Assembly: GCA_003116975.1 (NCBI GenBank) | Contig: BGKB01000235.1 | Coordinates: 1-64,000, forward strand | Source: Aurantiochytrium sp. KH105 | Taxonomy: Eukaryota > Sar > Bigyra > Thraustochytrida > Thraustochytriidae | Reading direction: 5' to 3' | DNA length: 64,000 nt | In this document: positions 977-13,584 of the stretch, piece by piece | Layout: every line of letters begins with the position of its first letter | Position numbering within the stretch: position 1 is the stretch's first letter | The notes under the pieces: generated by a model | What the model was told of the DNA's origin: nothing | Database searches by the model: none | The model's input: only the letters and a program-made list of their open reading frames with translations | Made by a program: the position numbers and the translations under genes

Positions 977-1932
977 GTCTTTTCCATACAATATTTGCAG
1001 CCGTTTGTTGTCTGGAATAGAATTCCCTTGCACTTGATCAGTCTGCTCGCTTTCGATTTTGAAACGCCCAGAGGTCCGAAGGATCAGAAAGCAAGACTTT
1101 GTAGGAGCCTGCTTCGTTGCGTTGGCCACAGGAGAAGCCGAAGCCACTTTCGCAAGAAATTAATTTCTAGCTTGTGCAATACAAAACCTTTTGAGTCTTG
1201 TGAGAGGCGCGCACGCGCAGGGGCGAAAGGGGTGTGTTAGGTATTTGGGCGAAGGCCGAGCGTGTGCACACGCTGGCACGCGCCGCCGGTGCACACGCGC
1301 GGGCTGGCTCAGGCTGGCCTGGCCTGGCCTGGAGAAGTCCGCAGGCTGCGATCCGTCAATGATCATCAACGCGGCCAACAGAACTGCAAGCGAACAACTG
1401 TGCGATGTTGGAGATGCCGAAACAGTGATTCCAGGCTTGACATGAACGAAGAATAAACATCAACATCCATGGTATACTACGTAGCCTGAACGTAGGCCTG
1501 GATATCATGGTGCTGTCAACAAAAAAGGGTCATGCATCTCTCGCTCTGCCGTTTTTTTGTTTTATAGTCAGATGGAAAACAACCCGCACACGAGCAGTGC
1601 TCGCGGGTCAGGTTCTACTTAACGATGCCCGTGACGATAAAAGCAAAATAATCTGGGCTCCGAAGCTACGCGGTCGACATCACGAGGCAGGGCACAGACC
1701 CCAGTAAGATCTCAGATCGTCATCTTAACGTCAAGAAGGCTCCTTCCTCTGCACAATTCTTCTTGAGATCAGCACTTCGGTCACATCGTTTGCTTGACAT
1801 GAATCTTTACGACTTGTGGGGCAATCTCAACATGCTTGTTGCAGGAAAGAAAAATCGTCAACGGGCCAGCCCTGATGGGAAAGCTTAAAATTAAAAGTTC
1901 TGCAGTCGCTCTCATTACTTTTGTTCCAAAGA
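977..1932. other. Intergenic stretch, left copy of a WD40-locus duplication
   Basis: No convincing coding frame. From about 1235 onward the sequence matches, with gaps, the stretch from about 3265: GTAT(T/C)TxGGCGAAGG, GGCTCAGGCTGGCCT, AAC(A/T)GTGCGATGTTGG-like, TTGACATGAACGAA and GGTCATGCATCTCTCGCTC all recur in the same order. It therefore seems to contain the 5' flank of a lost leftmost WD40 copy plus the 3' flank of the surviving WD40 gene. Confidence 0.6.
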
Positions 1933-2200
1933 TTACAAAATCGAACAAGTAGGACACAGCTTTGCATCAAGGTCCTCATCTATCCGTGCCGGCTTAAGAT
2001 CTGTTTCCACTTCCGCTGCAGCTGGCGATGCAAGGACTTCTTCGTCGATCGGCCCCTCTGTTTCCACTTCCGTTGGCAATGCAAGAGCTTCTTCCTCGAT
2101 GGGCCGCACGGCCTCCGTGCCGTCCAGCACGCGCGTCGAGTCGCCCGTCTCCGCGTCCCAGATGCGCACGCTCCTGTCCCAAGATCCGGTCACAACCTCC
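1235..2200. repeat. Left copy of diverged tandem segmental duplication
   Basis: Aligned by eye to about 3265-3930 in direct orientation. It spans the far 5' flank of a lost WD40 copy, an intergenic spacer, and the last part of the WD40 coding region. The strongest stretch is the gene end: GCACAGCTTTGCAT(C/G)AAGG followed by CCTCATCTAT(C/T)CGTGCCGGCTT. The unit period is about 1.8-2.0 kb, i.e. one gene plus spacer. Confidence 0.65.
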
Positions 2201-2970
2201 GACCCCACAAGAGAGACAGAGTTGACAATGTCCGAGTGTCCTTGCAAGACGTGCAGCAGGGCTCCGCTGCGCGCGTCCCAGAGTCTGACCGTGTTGTCGG
2301 CGGACCCGCTCACGATGCGGTCTCCCTCGAGAGCGACAGAGTTCACCCAGCGAGTGTGTCCTTCGATGACGCGGACGAGCTGGAAGGAAGGCACGGCGTA
2401 GACCCTCACCTTGTTGCCGGACCCGCTCACCATACGCTGCGCGTCAATCGCGACCGCGTAGACGTCTTCTGTCGCCTCCACGAGGTCGTGGCGTGGGCGG
2501 CAGCGGCCGCTGGCCCGGTCGAAGACGCGCACGGTTTTGTCTTTCAGCCCGGCCACAAGCAAGTTCTCGTGCGCGGCAACGCTCCAGACCCTCGCCCCGG
2601 CGTCGATCCTCAAGGTCTCTCGGCCGCTGATCTTGTCCCAGACGCGGACGGTCCTATCCTCCGATCCGGAGATGATTTCATTGCCGTCGAAGATGACGCT
2701 CTGGACAGCGACAGTGTGGCCCTGGAGGGCGTGCAGGACGGAGGCGGTGGCCAGGTCAATCAGGAAGAGGCCGCCTGCGTCAGTTCCGACGGCGGCGAGG
2801 TTGCCCTGCACCGCCACTCTGGTGGCCGCCTTGTTGTTGGGCGTCTTCATCTCCAAGACGAGGGCGCTGTCTTTCTTGCTCCACGCCCGCAAGAAGCCGT
2901 CCAAGCTGGCCGCAAGCACGAGGTCGGCGGACTGCGCGACGCCAAACACGACGCCTTCGATGCAGCCCAT
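1933..2970 (-). CDS. WD40 beta-propeller protein with C-terminal CaaX box
   Basis: 345 residues starting at an ATG. About seven WD40 blades are visible, with typical ends GSEDRTVRVWD, LKDKTVRVFD, GSADNTVRLWD and GSWDRSVRIWD, and GH dipeptides such as LQGHTVAV, IEGHTRWV and LQGHSDIV. After the propeller (about residue 290) comes an acidic tail with two imperfect copies of PI(E/D)EE(A/V)LA(L/S)P...EVET. The protein ends C-S-I-L, a CaaX prenylation box; Leu at X usually directs geranylgeranylation. Prediction: a membrane-tethered protein-interaction scaffold. Partner unknown. A decayed second copy lies about 1.8 kb to the right and also ends in a CaaX-like tetrapeptide, CSIQ. Confidence 0.85.
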   Translation of the reverse strand: MGCIEGVVFGVAQSADLVLAASLDGFLRAWSKKDSALVLEMKTPNNKAATRVAVQGNLAAVGTDAGGLFLIDLATASVLHALQGHTVAVQSVIFDGNEIISGSEDRTVRVWDKISGRETLRIDAGARVWSVAAHENLLVAGLKDKTVRVFDRASGRCRPRHDLVEATEDVYAVAIDAQRMVSGSGNKVRVYAVPSFQLVRVIEGHTRWVNSVALEGDRIVSGSADNTVRLWDARSGALLHVLQGHSDIVNSVSLVGSEVVTGSWDRSVRIWDAETGDSTRVLDGTEAVRPIEEEALALPTEVETEGPIDEEVLASPAAAEVETDLKPARIDEDLDAKLCPTCSIL

Positions 2971-4731: not shown

Positions 4732-6192
4732 ATGGCGCGCTCGAGAACGGCGCGCTCGGGAAAGGCGCTGGCAGTCGTAGCGCTGCTGGCGGCGGCAGCA
4801 GCAGCAACTGTGTGCGAGGCCGGCACGACGGAGCTCCTGGCCCTTCGCGGCAGTGAGGTCCAGCTGGCAAGTGAAACGAGCTTGCACACGGCGCTAGACC
4901 CGGATGGCAAGGGTTTCCTGGACGCAAACCTGTACCTCGCCCGCTCGCGCGCGGACGGCGAGGCGCTGCACACAATACTCCAAAGCCGAGGCCTCCTCGG
5001 AGACCTTGCAAGCGTAGCCTTCTTTGAAGAGGAGGAAGCCTATGAAAGGCTCTTTGGACGAGACCAAGGCCCGGTCCTTGTGCAGCGTGGCGTGGAGTTC
5101 GAGTACTGCAATGCTACGTACGAGGCGCGTACCGCGCAAGACGGCAAGCTGCAGGATTGGTTAAATAAGTCGCTTCGGACGAGCGCGGGTTGGGTTAACT
5201 TTCTCGACGTCACGCTCGACATGAACTGGCGCAACGGCGATCGCCTCGTTCACGTGGGCAAGCTCAAACCTGGAGAGCGTAACACGCAATGGAGACAAAC
5301 CTACGTTGGTCATGAATTTGCTCTTGTGCACCCGAATGGTACAACCTATGACTTCAAAATCACAACCGAGGAATTCTTTCGGATCGGGCAGTTCCCCAGT
5401 GCCATTGGCTCGCGTCAGGATCCGACCAGGGCGCAGCTGGAGCGTCTCGAAAGCTCTGAAAAGCGCCGACTGGCGCAAATCAAGGTCAACTTTACGGCCG
5501 ACGGCTACAAACGAATCAAGACGCCGCGCCAACTTCTTGGCGATATTCGCCGATTCTTCAATGTGAACCGCGAACGTGCCTTCCATGAAGACATGGGTGG
5601 GAGTATTCATATCAACACGTGGAAAGCAGATTCGGCCATGGTCCCGCCCTCATTCGCTACCAAGCACAAGTGGCATGCATGGTTCCAGCCAGTGCTAGAA
5701 GCATGGGCACAGACGCAACTCGAGCCAACAGACTTGTACGGCATTCGTACGTACCACCGAGGCGCCGTGCTATTGCCTCACATCGATCGCCACGCTACGC
5801 ACGCTGTTTCAGCCATCATCAATGTGGAGCAGCGTGGTGTCGACAAGGATTGGGATCTGGAAATTTTCAACATCCAGGGCGACGCCATCTATTCGGACCT
5901 GCAGACCGGTCAGGCCATGTTGTACGAGAGCGCACACTGCGTTCATGGACGGCCCGAGCCATTTCAGGGCGAGTCTTATACAAACGTCTTCTTTCATTAC
6001 CGCCCCTTAAATGACCCAGAATGGTTCAAACATGTCGTGCCTGGATCCAACGGCAAGTATGCCGGCCCAGCAGAATCAGCCGTCGCTGAAGCAGACGAAT
6101 ATGACGCTTACGACGAGGAAGGCGACGACTATTGGGAGGACGAGGAGGATATTGCCGATGATCTGGTGGGAGAGCTGCACGAGGAGCTCTAG
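4732..6192 (+). CDS. ER prolyl 4-hydroxylase-like 2OG-Fe(II) oxygenase with VHL-beta-like domain
   Basis: 486 residues. Residues 1-30 form a signal peptide (basic start, then LAVVALLAAAAAATVCEA). Residues about 120-205 resemble the beta domain of the von Hippel-Lindau protein: Asn-Trp-Arg-Asn-Gly at 165-169, L-K-P-G at 178-181 (pVHL LPPG) and T-Y-V-G-H at 190-194 (pVHL SYRGH). Residues about 320-430 are an oxygenase domain: H350-x-D352 (PHIDRH) and a distal H405 (CVHGR) are the likely iron ligands, ending NVFFHY. The basic 2-oxoglutarate anchor usually found 9-10 residues after the distal His is not evident. An acidic tail ends HEEL, an HDEL-like ER-retrieval signal. Several N-x-S/T sites fit a lumenal location. 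Prediction: hydroxylates proline in secretory proteins. The oxygenase call is firm, the VHL call moderate. Confidence 0.85.
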   Translation: MARSRTARSGKALAVVALLAAAAAATVCEAGTTELLALRGSEVQLASETSLHTALDPDGKGFLDANLYLARSRADGEALHTILQSRGLLGDLASVAFFEEEEAYERLFGRDQGPVLVQRGVEFEYCNATYEARTAQDGKLQDWLNKSLRTSAGWVNFLDVTLDMNWRNGDRLVHVGKLKPGERNTQWRQTYVGHEFALVHPNGTTYDFKITTEEFFRIGQFPSAIGSRQDPTRAQLERLESSEKRRLAQIKVNFTADGYKRIKTPRQLLGDIRRFFNVNRERAFHEDMGGSIHINTWKADSAMVPPSFATKHKWHAWFQPVLEAWAQTQLEPTDLYGIRTYHRGAVLLPHIDRHATHAVSAIINVEQRGVDKDWDLEIFNIQGDAIYSDLQTGQAMLYESAHCVHGRPEPFQGESYTNVFFHYRPLNDPEWFKHVVPGSNGKYAGPAESAVAEADEYDAYDEEGDDYWEDEEDIADDLVGELHEEL

Positions 6193-6336: not shown

Positions 6337-9144
6337 TCACTCCAAAAGCTTGGCGACCCTGTCGAGGATCTCTTGCAAGTGCGGATGCGAAGCCTCCATC
6401 TTCTTAAGCGTTTGGCGAATGGTCTCAATCTGATCCTGAGATTGATCGAGCATAATGTCCGCCTCCTCCTGCGAGACAGGGGCCTCAGCAGCCGGGGAGC
6501 GAGCAAAATCCACGTATCGCGCGACCAAAGACTGTGTCCGATTAAGCGTCTCAATGTTTCGCTGCTTTTGATAGAGCGCCTCATTAATGGCTCGCTTCTT
6601 GGTGGCGATGGCGTCTTCGACCTCGGCAAACTGGTTGCTCGCCTTTTCGAGTTCAAGCGTCATGTTCTCGGATTCCTGAAGACGGTCCGCAATGCCGCGC
6701 TCGTACTCCAGGCACTCTCGTGTATGCTGTTTGACCTCCTTTCGCTCAAGCTTGAGCTTGCGTCGAAGCTCGGCCTCGGTCATTTCTGCAATAGCCTCGT
6801 CACTTCCTGGACGAAGTCGACGACCCCCAGCGTGCATCGCAGCCTTTGCTGCGCCCTTTCGACGCGTAGCAATCGTTTCGCGCTTGAGAATTGCCATTTC
6901 CATCTCCTTGATCATTTTCTCCTGCTCTCGGTGCAAGTTGCCGAGGCGAATCTTCATGCGGTGAATTTCCTTCTCCATGGCCTTGACCTCGGACTGACCG
7001 ACGGTAGGGTCGAGCGCCTCCTGTGTTTCCTTTTCGAGCTGGATTTTCTTCTCCCAAAGCTTGATTTGACGCTCAGATTCCATGATCTCGTCCAGCAGGG
7101 ACTGCTTTTCCATCTTGGTCTTCTCGATTCGTGCCTCTGCGTCCACCGACTGCGCCTCAAGTTCCTTGAGCTCACTAATGAATTCGGCCTGCATCACTTC
7201 GTTCACATTGGCAAGAGAGTCCTGCTTGTCCTTGTGTTCGGCAATAAGGCTGTTGAGCTTGTGCATGTCATTATGCATGCGACGGACCCTGCCCTCGAGA
7301 TCCTGAAGTTCGGCACTCTGGGCGTGAATTCGGTTATCAAGTCGCTTCTTCTTTTGCTGCAGAATGGTCTCGGTGCTCGTGAGTTCGTGCACCGTCGTGG
7401 TCTCTTGTTCCATCTCATTCACGACTTGAACAAATTCGGTCTGCAATTTGAGCCACGTTCTCTCCAGCTCGCGGTTCTGGGCGCTCAGCGCAGTCGTTTC
7501 CTTGGTCAGATTTTTGATGGTAGCCTCGAGCGGGCCGAGGTTCTCCGGGCCTTCCTGGTTCGCGGCCATGACTTCAAGCTTGCGATTGAGCCTGTCCTTG
7601 ACGTACATTTTCTTCTCAATTTGATCATGGCGCTGGCGAATTTCTAGCTTGTATTTTTCAATCATCTTGTCCTTTTCGTCGAGATCGGCAACGAGACGGT
7701 CCACTTCCTCTTGAAGTTGGTTGCCGTGCGCCTGCGTGTTGAGTCGATCAATCTTGATGCGTGAAAGCTCATTCTCCGACACGGCCACCTCCATCTCCTT
7801 GGCGTGCACCTCCTTTTGCAGCTTGGCAGCCTCGCGCGCAAGATTCTTGGCAGCCTTGCTCATGGTCGTACGATCATTCAGCAAAGCAGAGGTTTCCTCT
7901 TCGACGGCATGACGCTGGCGATCCACGACGCTTACCTTGGACTGGAGACTCTTGATGGTCTTGTTGCAGTTTGCGAGAATGCCGTGGAACTTGTGCGCTT
8001 CAGCGTCTTGCTGCTCGAGGCTCTTGTTGAGCATGCTAAATTGGTCGCTCAGCTTGAGGTACGCCTTTTCATACTTGGTGAGGGCGTCCTCTACCTGTTT
8101 GAGCGCATGTTCCTGACGCACCTTGCGCTCGACAAGCTTTTCGCTCTCGAACTGCACCTTGGAAGCGCTCACCTTATAGCCTTCAATTTCAGCGCGCACG
8201 GCTCGAATTTCTTCCTTTTTCTCCTGAATTGTGCGTACCATGGCCTCGTGGGCTTCGTCTCGCTTTTGCAGCGCAATGAGCGTGCTGTTCCATTCTTGCA
8301 TGACCTGTTTCTTTTCGAATTGGGTCGTTTGCATTTCCTTTCCGGCCTCGCGAAGTGTCGTTTCGGCAGCATCCGTTTCTTCCTTTTGCGACTGCCGCTG
8401 GGCCTCGATCATGGCAATTTCCTCTTGAAGCTGCTTCACCTTTTCGACACGCGAGTCAATGTAAAGATCCTGCTCCTGCTTTTTCTTTTCAAGCTTGCCC
8501 ACGGCCTCCTCCGTTTTGTGCGTTGCTCGTCGCATGACTGCAATTTCGCCGCGCGTCTCTTCGAGGTATGCCTCGACCTGGCGGACGGCAGCTTTGACAG
8601 CGTTCTCTTCTTGCTTGGCGGCCTTGACTTTTTCCTCGGCGAGCTTGACTTCGCGTGAGCATGTCTCGAGAACACGACGTCGTTCGCGAGACTCTTGCTC
8701 GGCATCAGCACGACTCCTCGAGGTGTCTGCGAATTCATTGTGCGTAGTTTCGAGCTGCACCTGAAGCGAGGCGAGCTGCTGCTGCAGCCCGTACAGCGTC
8801 ACACCAAGCGTCTCACGGCTCTGCTGTGCGCGCTTAAGATCCTCGCGAAGATCGTCAAGCGCGAGCTCTTTTTCCTTGAGCTCGCTCACCTGCTGCTTGC
8901 GCAGCATTTCTTGCACCGAGTCGAGCATTGGCGTCTGACCTATAGCGCGGACTGCCTCCTCGGCATCCTCGCGCGTCGCAAAGGCGCCATGGCGGCCGCC
9001 TTCCTCGTTGTCATCATCATCGTCATCGTCCTCGTTGTCATATTCGCTGCCATTGCGCTCGGCGTTCACGCCGCCAGCGCGGTCCGCATCCTCGTTTTCA
9101 TACATGGCGTCTTCGCCTTCGTACTCTGGCGCGTTGGCCGACAT
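6337..9144 (-). CDS. CCDC40: CCDC40/FAP172, axonemal 96-nm ruler coiled-coil protein
   Basis: The longest frame begins at a TTG (9150); the first ATG is at 9144 (MSANAPEYEGED), giving 935 residues. An acidic N-terminus of about 60 residues is followed by near-continuous coiled coil. Two stretches match what I remember of CCDC40: NLGPLEATIKNLTKE (animal LSPLE-x-x-I-x-x-LTK) and ERQIKLWEKKIQLEKE followed by EKEIHRMKIRLGNLHREQEK (animal ERQIMLWEKKIQL, EIHRMKVRL). In other organisms CCDC40 pairs with CCDC39 to set the 96-nm repeat that positions inner dynein arms and the nexin-dynein complex. Its partner is not in this window. The gene is divergent from CCDC103, 674 bases away. Confidence 0.9.
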   Translation of the reverse strand: MSANAPEYEGEDAMYENEDADRAGGVNAERNGSEYDNEDDDDDDDNEEGGRHGAFATREDAEEAVRAIGQTPMLDSVQEMLRKQQVSELKEKELALDDLREDLKRAQQSRETLGVTLYGLQQQLASLQVQLETTHNEFADTSRSRADAEQESRERRRVLETCSREVKLAEEKVKAAKQEENAVKAAVRQVEAYLEETRGEIAVMRRATHKTEEAVGKLEKKKQEQDLYIDSRVEKVKQLQEEIAMIEAQRQSQKEETDAAETTLREAGKEMQTTQFEKKQVMQEWNSTLIALQKRDEAHEAMVRTIQEKKEEIRAVRAEIEGYKVSASKVQFESEKLVERKVRQEHALKQVEDALTKYEKAYLKLSDQFSMLNKSLEQQDAEAHKFHGILANCNKTIKSLQSKVSVVDRQRHAVEEETSALLNDRTTMSKAAKNLAREAAKLQKEVHAKEMEVAVSENELSRIKIDRLNTQAHGNQLQEEVDRLVADLDEKDKMIEKYKLEIRQRHDQIEKKMYVKDRLNRKLEVMAANQEGPENLGPLEATIKNLTKETTALSAQNRELERTWLKLQTEFVQVVNEMEQETTTVHELTSTETILQQKKKRLDNRIHAQSAELQDLEGRVRRMHNDMHKLNSLIAEHKDKQDSLANVNEVMQAEFISELKELEAQSVDAEARIEKTKMEKQSLLDEIMESERQIKLWEKKIQLEKETQEALDPTVGQSEVKAMEKEIHRMKIRLGNLHREQEKMIKEMEMAILKRETIATRRKGAAKAAMHAGGRRLRPGSDEAIAEMTEAELRRKLKLERKEVKQHTRECLEYERGIADRLQESENMTLELEKASNQFAEVEDAIATKKRAINEALYQKQRNIETLNRTQSLVARYVDFARSPAAEAPVSQEEADIMLDQSQDQIETIRQTLKKMEASHPHLQEILDRVAKLLE

Positions 9145-12138: not shown

Positions 12139-13584
12139 TCATCGTCTTAGCCGTACGTAAAAAGCGCCTTGATGCCCATTTCTGTCTTTGCCGATCATGT
12201 ATGTGTAGCCTTTTCTGTCAAGGTAGTCGCGAACCTGATCGAAAAGCTTGTATAGTCGTTGTGTTGTGTGATGGCCCGAGCCCGTGACTACCCAAACGTA
12301 GCCAGAATTCGCGTCCGGGTGCTCCGTGTCCACCTCATAAAAGGGAGAGGTCGGGAGGATTTTATCCAAAACGACTTCATAAGTGTATGCAGATTGGAAA
12401 TGCAAATCGAGCACGCCACGGTGCGTGTGCACGCTATTTGCCTCATAAAAGCGCTGAATTGGATCTGGAATATCAAAGGTGCTCGCATTTCGCGCAGCGG
12501 CGTCGACCCAAAGTTCTTGGGGAATTCGTTTCGTGCGTACCGCCTTCGCACGACTAGATTCCGAAGCTATTCCACTTGTCGTGGTATCCTCGGACCCGGT
12601 CTTGTGCGCGGCGCTCATCTTGAGCCTCTGAGCCATTGTCATGGTCACTTCGTCAACTGGGTCTCGTGGGGGCAAACTGGGCATCTGAATAGCTTCAGCT
12701 GGCGTTGGCATGTCCTGCGCAGCCCAAGGGTTAGCAGGCGCCGAGGCCGGTGATGCAGAGGAAAGAAGGGGTGAGGCCGACGCAAGCAATGAAGACGATG
12801 ACTGCGCCGACGCGCTTGCCTGGAGGTCGCTGGCCGGGGGAGGGCCCCATGGCTGAGAAGTGGCAGCAAAGTAGTCTTTACCCGAGGTGGCCCATGGCGA
12901 CCCATCAGGCCCGAAGTCAGCGTTGGAGCCTGAGGACGACGAACTCCAAGGATTCGTCTCGGTCGATGCCTGCACAAACGAGCCCGCGGGTTGTGATCCA
13001 GCACCTTCGTGCTGATAATACCCTTGGCCTTGCTCCCCTCCGTAGGCGTACGGCTGCTGCGTCTGTTCGGTCTTGTCAAAGGGCTGCTGATGATCTTGTT
13101 GATTTTGATACTGATATTGATTGTCGTAATCCTGGTACTGTTGGTACTGTTGATATTGCTGGTGCTGCTGATACTGATGTTGCTGTTGGTGCTGATTTTG
13201 CAAGGCATCCATCTGACGCTGGTGAGCCTGCAAGGAAGCTTCGTATGCTTGCTTTTGTCGGTCTTGGCTCGCAAGACGTGCGGCCAGATCGGCGTCCGAG
13301 GGCGAAGATGCAGTGTTGAGACGCTTGGCATCGCCAGGATGCTTGTAGAGACAACCCTCGGTCCGGCAGTGCGCGCCAAATCGGCACGGTTTGGCCGAGA
13401 ACTTGGCAAGAAGCGCAGCCTTCTCCTCGGGAGACACATGTTTGTTGCGGCATTTGTTGCCAAAGAGACAGTTACCAGTGAGAAAAGGCATGCAAACAAC
13501 ATCTTCGTTTACAACGTGTTTCGTGGGGTGCCTGTAAGCACAGCCTTTGCGCTTGCACGCGAGACCGTATGTGCACATTGGCAT
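12139..13584 (-). CDS. CCCH zinc-finger, prion-like and Smr-domain protein
   Basis: 481 residues from an ATG. Three CCCH fingers at the N-terminus: C-x5-C-x4-C-x3-H (CTYGLACKRKGCAYRH), C-x7-C-x5-C-x3-H (CMPFLTGNCLFGNKCRNKH) and C-x5-C-x4-C-x3-H (CRFGAHCRTEGCLYKH). Residues about 125-185 are a Gln/Tyr/His-rich prion-like tract, followed by a Ser/Ala-rich linker. Residues about 385-481 are an Smr domain, with D-L-H (GVLDLHFQ) and the GSGHHT loop. Smr domains bind or cut RNA, often on ribosomes (Cue2/N4BP2 type). Prediction: an RNA-binding, possibly endonucleolytic mRNA-surveillance factor that may condense. A branch-like CACTAAC and a CAG acceptor lie just 5' of the ATG, so a 5'-UTR intron is likely. 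Confidence 0.85.
   Translation of the reverse strand: MPMCTYGLACKRKGCAYRHPTKHVVNEDVVCMPFLTGNCLFGNKCRNKHVSPEEKAALLAKFSAKPCRFGAHCRTEGCLYKHPGDAKRLNTASSPSDADLAARLASQDRQKQAYEASLQAHQRQMDALQNQHQQQHQYQQHQQYQQYQQYQDYDNQYQYQNQQDHQQPFDKTEQTQQPYAYGGEQGQGYYQHEGAGSQPAGSFVQASTETNPWSSSSSGSNADFGPDGSPWATSGKDYFAATSQPWGPPPASDLQASASAQSSSSLLASASPLLSSASPASAPANPWAAQDMPTPAEAIQMPSLPPRDPVDEVTMTMAQRLKMSAAHKTGSEDTTTSGIASESSRAKAVRTKRIPQELWVDAAARNASTFDIPDPIQRFYEANSVHTHRGVLDLHFQSAYTYEVVLDKILPTSPFYEVDTEHPDANSGYVWVVTGSGHHTTQRLYKLFDQVRDYLDRKGYTYMIGKDRNGHQGAFYVRLRR

Follow-up and report, generated by a model that had tools for sequence, protein, structure and literature searches.

The window analysed here is the whole 64,000-nt stretch of Aurantiochytrium sp. 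KH105 contig BGKB01000235.1 (positions 1 to 64,000, forward strand). At positions 4732..6192 on the plus strand it contains an intact, single-frame ORF of 486 amino acids, which very likely joins a VHL-like domain to a 2OG-Fe(II) oxygenase. A search of the organism's own genome (76 Mb, 367 contigs) revealed a second copy of this gene on contig C259 (L002). The two copies are 99% identical and the second is probably the other allele.

The protein begins with a probable signal peptide (residues 1-30; 4732..4821, plus strand), recognized by eye as a hydrophobic stretch; residues 10-28 form a helix in a predicted model of low confidence. The following N-terminal region, residues 31-147 (4822..5172, plus strand), has no Pfam match. 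The VHL beta-like domain occupies residues 150-213 (5179..5370, plus strand) and was delineated by profile matches, alignments, and shuffle and masking controls. Within it, T190-Y-V-G-H194 (5299..5313, plus strand) aligns with S111-Y-R-G-H115 of pVHL. Sequence comparison places a 2OG-Fe(II) oxygenase domain of the cyanophage type at residues 246-430 (5467..6021, plus strand). Its HxD iron-ligand motif is H350-I-D352 (5779..5787, plus strand) and its distal iron ligand is H405 (5944..5946, plus strand), both at the positions given in the initial annotation.

The last four residues, HEEL (6178..6189, plus strand), fit the ER-retrieval pattern [KRHQSA]-[DENQ]-E-L (PROSITE PS00014). The enzyme had initially been described as secreted. 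Because its C-terminus matches an ER-retrieval pattern, we believe that the protein is probably retained in the ER instead.

Two neighbouring genes lie on the minus strand. One, at 6340-9144, encodes a 935-aa protein with a BRE1-type stretch, and its stop codon falls about 145 bases beyond the end of the oxygenase gene. The other, at 12142-13584, encodes a CCCH zinc-finger protein whose C-terminus gives a weak Smr match that stays under the Pfam cut-off.

The catalytic domain

The gene was initially called a prolyl 4-hydroxylase (P4H), and the protein does share the HxD...H iron triad (H350, D352, H405) with that family. However, its relatives were cyanophage 2OG oxygenases. Residues 320-427 were 40% identical to a cyanophage 2OG-Fe(II) oxygenase (E 9e-17), and the catalytic domain matched phrog_2954 at E 1.5e-16. 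Residues H350, D352, R353, H405, G406 and R407 were invariant in all four aligned rows, and we would expect the domain to be catalytically active. The catalytic half was assigned to no Pfam family, either within the whole protein or as an isolated piece, and a phmmer search of the PDB with the window protein found no P4H chain at E<=10. When the catalytic half was combined with six viral relatives into a profile, the nearest solved chain was only EvdO1 (E 0.037). Additionally, the Lys that follows the distal His, invariant in a P4H alignment of four rows, has no counterpart between residues 406 and 430. With no Pfam match, relatives of the cyanophage type and the Lys missing, the P4H assignment is not supported for this gene, and none of the matches connects its catalytic half with proline. 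A distant tie of this family to the PF13640 superfamily is nevertheless likely, because one paralog on contig C35, which has the same catalytic family, gave a sub-threshold PF13640 match (E 0.011).

The cyanophage oxygenases (phrog_2954; S-SCSM1 QFG06372.1) resemble the window catalytic domain in sequence, but the cyanophage proteins examined are only 231-234 aa long and have no VHL-like domain. No relative turned up when genome contigs were first scanned with the catalytic family of the window protein. Whole-protein scans with the window protein and with P0004 found no viral relative, and a scan with P0002 found four viral P4H-like loci. In phrog_2954, phrog_3531 and some phage records, proteins resembling 2OG-Fe(II) oxygenases carry the label ferrochelatase, apparently a misannotation.

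The VHL-like domain

The initial annotation proposed a pVHL-like module at residues of about 120-205. Such a module is indeed present: its motifs lie in the order of pVHL, and profiles built without the window protein find it. Its limits, however, are about 150-213, and residues 115-147 fall outside it. In the alignment, W166-R-N168, L178-K-P-G181 and T190-Y-V-G-H194 follow one another as in pVHL (PF01847; PDB 1LM8), with the order N...W...L.PG...S/T-Y-x-G-H and near-equal spacing. The distance of 10 from N156 to W166 is that from N78 to W88 in pVHL. Relative to pVHL, the window protein lacks one residue after D170 and has two extra residues before T190. The VHL signature residues N78, W88, S/T111 and H115 correspond to N156, W166, T190 and H194.

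Pfam gave no VHL match at E<=10 with either the full-length protein or the isolated region; no VHL_C domain was found, nor any Pfam family whatever at this threshold. Searches of Pfam, NCBIfam and the PDB with the whole protein found neither VHL nor a 2OG oxygenase. The blank result from NCBIfam says little, because the P4H-like protein of contig C44 (see below) is also blank there. Single-sequence comparison of the window domain gave moderate probabilities (60%, E 8.7e-5; 39%, E 3.2e-4).

Profiles from which the window protein was left out did find the domain. A three-paralog profile, consisting of both C35 domains and the C44 domain, matched window residues 158-200 (single-sequence E 2.8e-6), and none of 5000 shuffled sequences scored as high. 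Against the PDB, this profile found pVHL chains at E about 8e-4; the chain dIG14, whose name suggests a designed Ig-like sandwich, ranked above every pVHL chain (E 3e-4). A profile of six paralog domains scored the window protein at 16.9 bits (single-sequence E 2.4e-7); again none of 5000 shuffles reached this value, the best scoring 10.5, and the reversed sequence was not matched. Finally, a 12-domain profile combined the six paralogs with six bacterial VHL domains and omitted pVHL as well. It aligned window residues 154-211 at 21.1 bits (single-sequence E 1.4e-8; best of 5000 shuffles, 8.8 bits), and scored a pVHL segment at 36.4 bits. The 12-domain profile was also run over 3267 ORFs, 401 encoded in the window and 2866 in bacterial, viral and phage loci. 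It ranked the window ORF first (21.0 bits, E 4.8e-5), and the next scored 7.2 bits.

We then asked which residues produce these scores. With T190-H194 masked, the best-domain score of the 12-domain profile fell to 3.9 bits, against 20.7 for the intact domain, and it vanished when another motif was masked as well. When the three motifs were left in place and all other residues of the domain were shuffled, the observed score was reached once in 2000 shuffles with the six-domain profile and twice in 2000 with the 12-domain profile. Thus, the motifs supply most of the signal, but the flanks add to it. Bacterial Pfam VHL domains matched the paralog domains with 97% probability (E 1.7e-10), and by profile the bacterial VHL beta domain proteins carry the same domain as the window protein and its paralogs. 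The window domain is homologous in sequence to VHL domains.

Structure prediction was of very low confidence in both AlphaFold2 runs (mean pLDDT 37.7 and 49.0). The first of these low-confidence models has five strands between residues 162 and 209. An unrelated P4H peptide-binding domain is a weak alternative for the region, as there is no Pfam match to one and the low-confidence model places strands between 162 and 209.

Apart from sequence changes in its pocket, the window protein differs from pVHL in its fused oxygenase, its probable location in the ER lumen and its lack of a BC-box pattern. The BC-box pattern is absent from the window protein; a role in a ubiquitin ligase is therefore unlikely.

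Related fusions in the same genome

The fusion of a VHL-like domain to a 2OG oxygenase recurs in six further genes of this genome. With alleles collapsed and the window gene included, seven distinct genes have this architecture. They were found by searches from both directions. In the VHL-first search (PF01847 and two paralog VHL domains as queries, E<0.1, alleles collapsed), six distinct genes were recovered: one each on C44, C24, C60 and C104, and two on C35, of which one was found only as the query itself. Five of the six are 2OG oxygenases. The window gene and the C78 gene were missed by the VHL-first searches.

The oxygenase-first search with PF13640 gave 33 places, or about 17 genes if contigs with matching scores are alleles. 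A VHL-like domain was present in four of the approximately 16 genes scanned, a count that covers the 30 places with loci, leaves out the C32/C241 gene and would miss a domain lying past an intron or locus end. When the three-paralog profile was run over the ORFs of the own-genome loci gathered, it added the C24, C60 and C78 fusions, with scores of 69.9, 27.2 and 24.5 bits. Pfam VHL was called at E<=0.1 in none of these three, nor in the C35 pair; among the seven fusions, only the C44 protein passes the Pfam VHL cut-off.

The order of the two domains varies. The VHL-like domain lies on the N-terminal side of the oxygenase in the window, C60 and C78 proteins and on the C-terminal side in the two C35 proteins, C44 and C24. 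The C35 paralogs (660 and 628 aa) have an oxygenase domain of the same type as the window protein and a C-terminal VHL-like domain, which carries F-x-N, W, PG (GRG in one of them) and T/S-Y/F-R-G-H. Their genes are arranged tail to tail at about 12,100-14,500 of C35 (L003, L005). The stretch of about 180 residues that precedes their oxygenase domains is 58% alike between the two, and in one paralog it gave a weak Thioredoxin_2 match in Pfam (E 0.023). In the PDB, this N-terminal region of the C35 paralogs matched no thioredoxin or PDI, and one chain appeared at E 0.37. A thioredoxin-like N-terminal region in the window protein, an idea taken from these paralogs, was rejected since the comparison gave a probability of 1.1%.

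The other four fusions (C44, C24, C60 and C78) have P4H domains, and they matched solved P4Hs at E 1.1e-24, 7.6e-26, 3.8e-18 and 3.5e-24, in that order. The C44 protein (549 aa; L009, about 513,000-514,640) is P4H-like, with a PF13640 domain (E 6.5e-11) and a C-terminal Pfam VHL domain (24 bits against a cut-off of 21), and by eye is probably membrane-anchored. The C78 gene (L038, ORF 430-1854) encodes VHL-like, ShK and P4H domains on one polypeptide. The C60 gene (L054, ORF 310-1791) encodes an N-terminal VHL-like domain and a P4H; an intron may follow, because the frame stops soon past the distal His.

The remaining gene of the VHL-first search, on C104 (L011, ORF 1330-2319, minus strand), is an ORF of 329 aa whose VHL match is borderline and in which Pfam found no oxygenase. 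This match scored 21.1 bits in one search and 18.6 in another (C104/C113; L011/L012), and the paralog profile did not match it. By its sequence it is possibly a stand-alone VHL-like protein.

Outside this genome, prokaryotic VHL domains were rare. At E<=0.01 they occurred in 7/398, 2/396 and 11/386 genomes of three phyla, which were reached via Amantichitinum, Nocardia and Vampirovibrio records. Their Pfam partners include a kinase, a ricin-type lectin, MliC and CAP. Unlike the seven fusions, none of the 16 prokaryotic VHL proteins scanned with Pfam had a 2OG domain; this partner-domain scan left out L248, L249, L250 (from the contig stretch that also holds L244), L261, L263, L264 and the second ORF of L244.

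We also looked for the domain beside bacterial and viral oxygenases. The 160 P4H-type loci consisted of the best 80 of at least 513 and the best 80 of at least 402 confirmed relatives; together with further loci they yielded 2866 ORFs of at least 100 residues. At E<=1 no VHL-like domain was found in these ORFs, apart from one match at chance level (E 0.69). Since none occurred among the 160 loci (best 80 of each set), fusion to a VHL domain is not a general feature of P4Hs. Short patterns found no VHL domain in viral contigs, and searches for it in phages gave nothing convincing (best E 6).

Function of the fused domain

Based on these results, we propose that the window gene encodes an ER-lumenal 2OG-Fe(II) oxygenase in which a divergent VHL beta domain serves as an accessory module on the N-terminal side. 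The module would most likely bind a polypeptide, either the substrate or its hydroxylated product, and so keep it close to the active site. We regard this reading as probable. The plant, algal and bacterial P4Hs (Cr-P4H-1, PDB 2JIG) are among the closest known systems; they too are 2OG-Fe(II) oxygenases with accessory domains, and the eukaryotic ones belong to the secretory path. The window protein differs from them in that its accessory domain is VHL-like rather than Tox1/ShK and its catalytic domain has no P4H match. Accessory domains can serve localization or folding too.

This last point leads to the main alternative, in which the VHL-like domain would be a generic adhesive or localization sandwich that binds neither substrate nor hydroxyproline (Hyp). 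PMC11275109 describes the Tox1/ShK domain of plant type 2 P4Hs as a Golgi localization domain, and the C78 fusion has a ShK domain in addition to its VHL-like domain. The variety of domains that adjoin bacterial VHL domains is also what one would expect of a general binding module. However, the VHL-like domain recurs on 2OG oxygenases in this genome, and the equivalents of W88, S/T111 and H115 are kept in all seven fusions; a pure scaffold would allow these residues to change, although a structural role might keep them. On this analysis we regard a localization sandwich as possible, but unlikely.

The substrate- or product-binding module could take a special form, in which the VHL-like domain is a true Hyp reader and the enzyme, binding its own product, is processive or tethered. 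In pVHL, Trp88, Tyr98, His110, Ser111, His115 and Trp117 make up the Hyp pocket; the Hyp hydroxyl is bonded by Ser111 and His115, and the carbonyl by Tyr98 (PMC9528729). PMC6650433 names Ile109 in addition. The initial annotation considered the pocket of the window protein to be partly kept, with His194 present, and our alignment agrees, but the equivalent of Trp117 is Phe196 and not 'Phe/Ala'. At the positions of W88, Y98, S111, H115 and W117 the window protein has W, V, T, H and F, so that the full pocket is not present. The same holds for its relatives. Among the seven fusions, Trp88, Ser/Thr111 and His115 were each kept in 7/7, Trp117 was replaced by Phe in 7/7, and Tyr98 was found in 0/7, its place being taken by Gln in four, Ser in another, Val in the window protein and a gap in C78.

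Retention of Trp88 and of both hydroxyl partners in every fusion is consistent with Hyp reading, as is the presence of P4H domains in the four sister fusions C44, C24, C60 and C78. However, the bacterial domains keep the same residues. The 19 bacterial rows, from 18 proteins, had Trp88 in 19/19, Ser/Thr111 in 19/19, His115 in 17/19, Trp117 in 16/19 and Tyr98 in 11/19, in an alignment for which 12 of the domains had also built the aligning profile; three partial rows (L251 residues 59-76; window residues 241-255 and 325-342) were kept outside the pocket counts. The oxygenase scan covered 16 of these 18 proteins and gave 0/16. Thus, the retained residues mark the VHL family rather than Hyp binding. 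Together with the loss of Tyr98 and Trp117 and an oxygenase that is not of the P4H type by sequence, this leaves a true Hyp reader in the window protein possible but unlikely. A chain that both writes and reads is better argued from C44, C24, C60 and C78, because those proteins match solved P4Hs, and C44 in particular makes a better case for a combined writer and reader than the window gene does.

The window match might also be fortuitous, reflecting similar short motifs but no VHL-like fold. This is highly improbable: masking two motifs abolishes the score, Pfam has no VHL match and both predicted models are of low confidence, but the first rank among 3267 ORFs, the absence of any equal among 5000 shuffles, the rarity of motif-fixed shuffles reaching the score (1/2000 and 2/2000) and a domain of the same type on two C35 paralogs with the same catalytic family argue against it.

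A broader view may also be entertained. VHL beta domains could be an old module for binding ligands outside the cytosol, one that this protist lineage joined more than once to protein hydroxylases. There the domains would read hydroxylated polypeptides from within the enzyme itself, with writer and reader in one ER chain. We offer this as speculation and think it rather improbable. If it were true, Hyp reading by VHL would predate, or have arisen independently of, the HIF pathway and ubiquitin ligase of animals. The seven fusions do give a hint that the VHL domain and hydroxylation have long been connected; Hyp reading is possible. Having seven oxygenase-VHL fusions in one genome makes the origin of VHL and its Hyp pocket testable: one can ask whether these domains prefer Hyp and whether they make the hydroxylase processive.

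Among the open-access papers listed in our literature searches, judged by titles and the beginnings of abstracts, none describes an oxygenase-VHL fusion. Two papers touch on the distribution of VHL: PMC9002001 describes a bacterial VHL-domain protein, and PMC5800844 reports finding VHL orthologs neither in ctenophores nor in sponges, apart from a few demosponges. The VHL beta domain has also been engineered for use in plants (PMC13223302). PF01847 did not occur in the main text of PMC11321763, and PMC5097156 yielded nothing about the pocket residues. The seven fusions bear on the practice of naming non-animal VHL domains tumour-suppressor-like.
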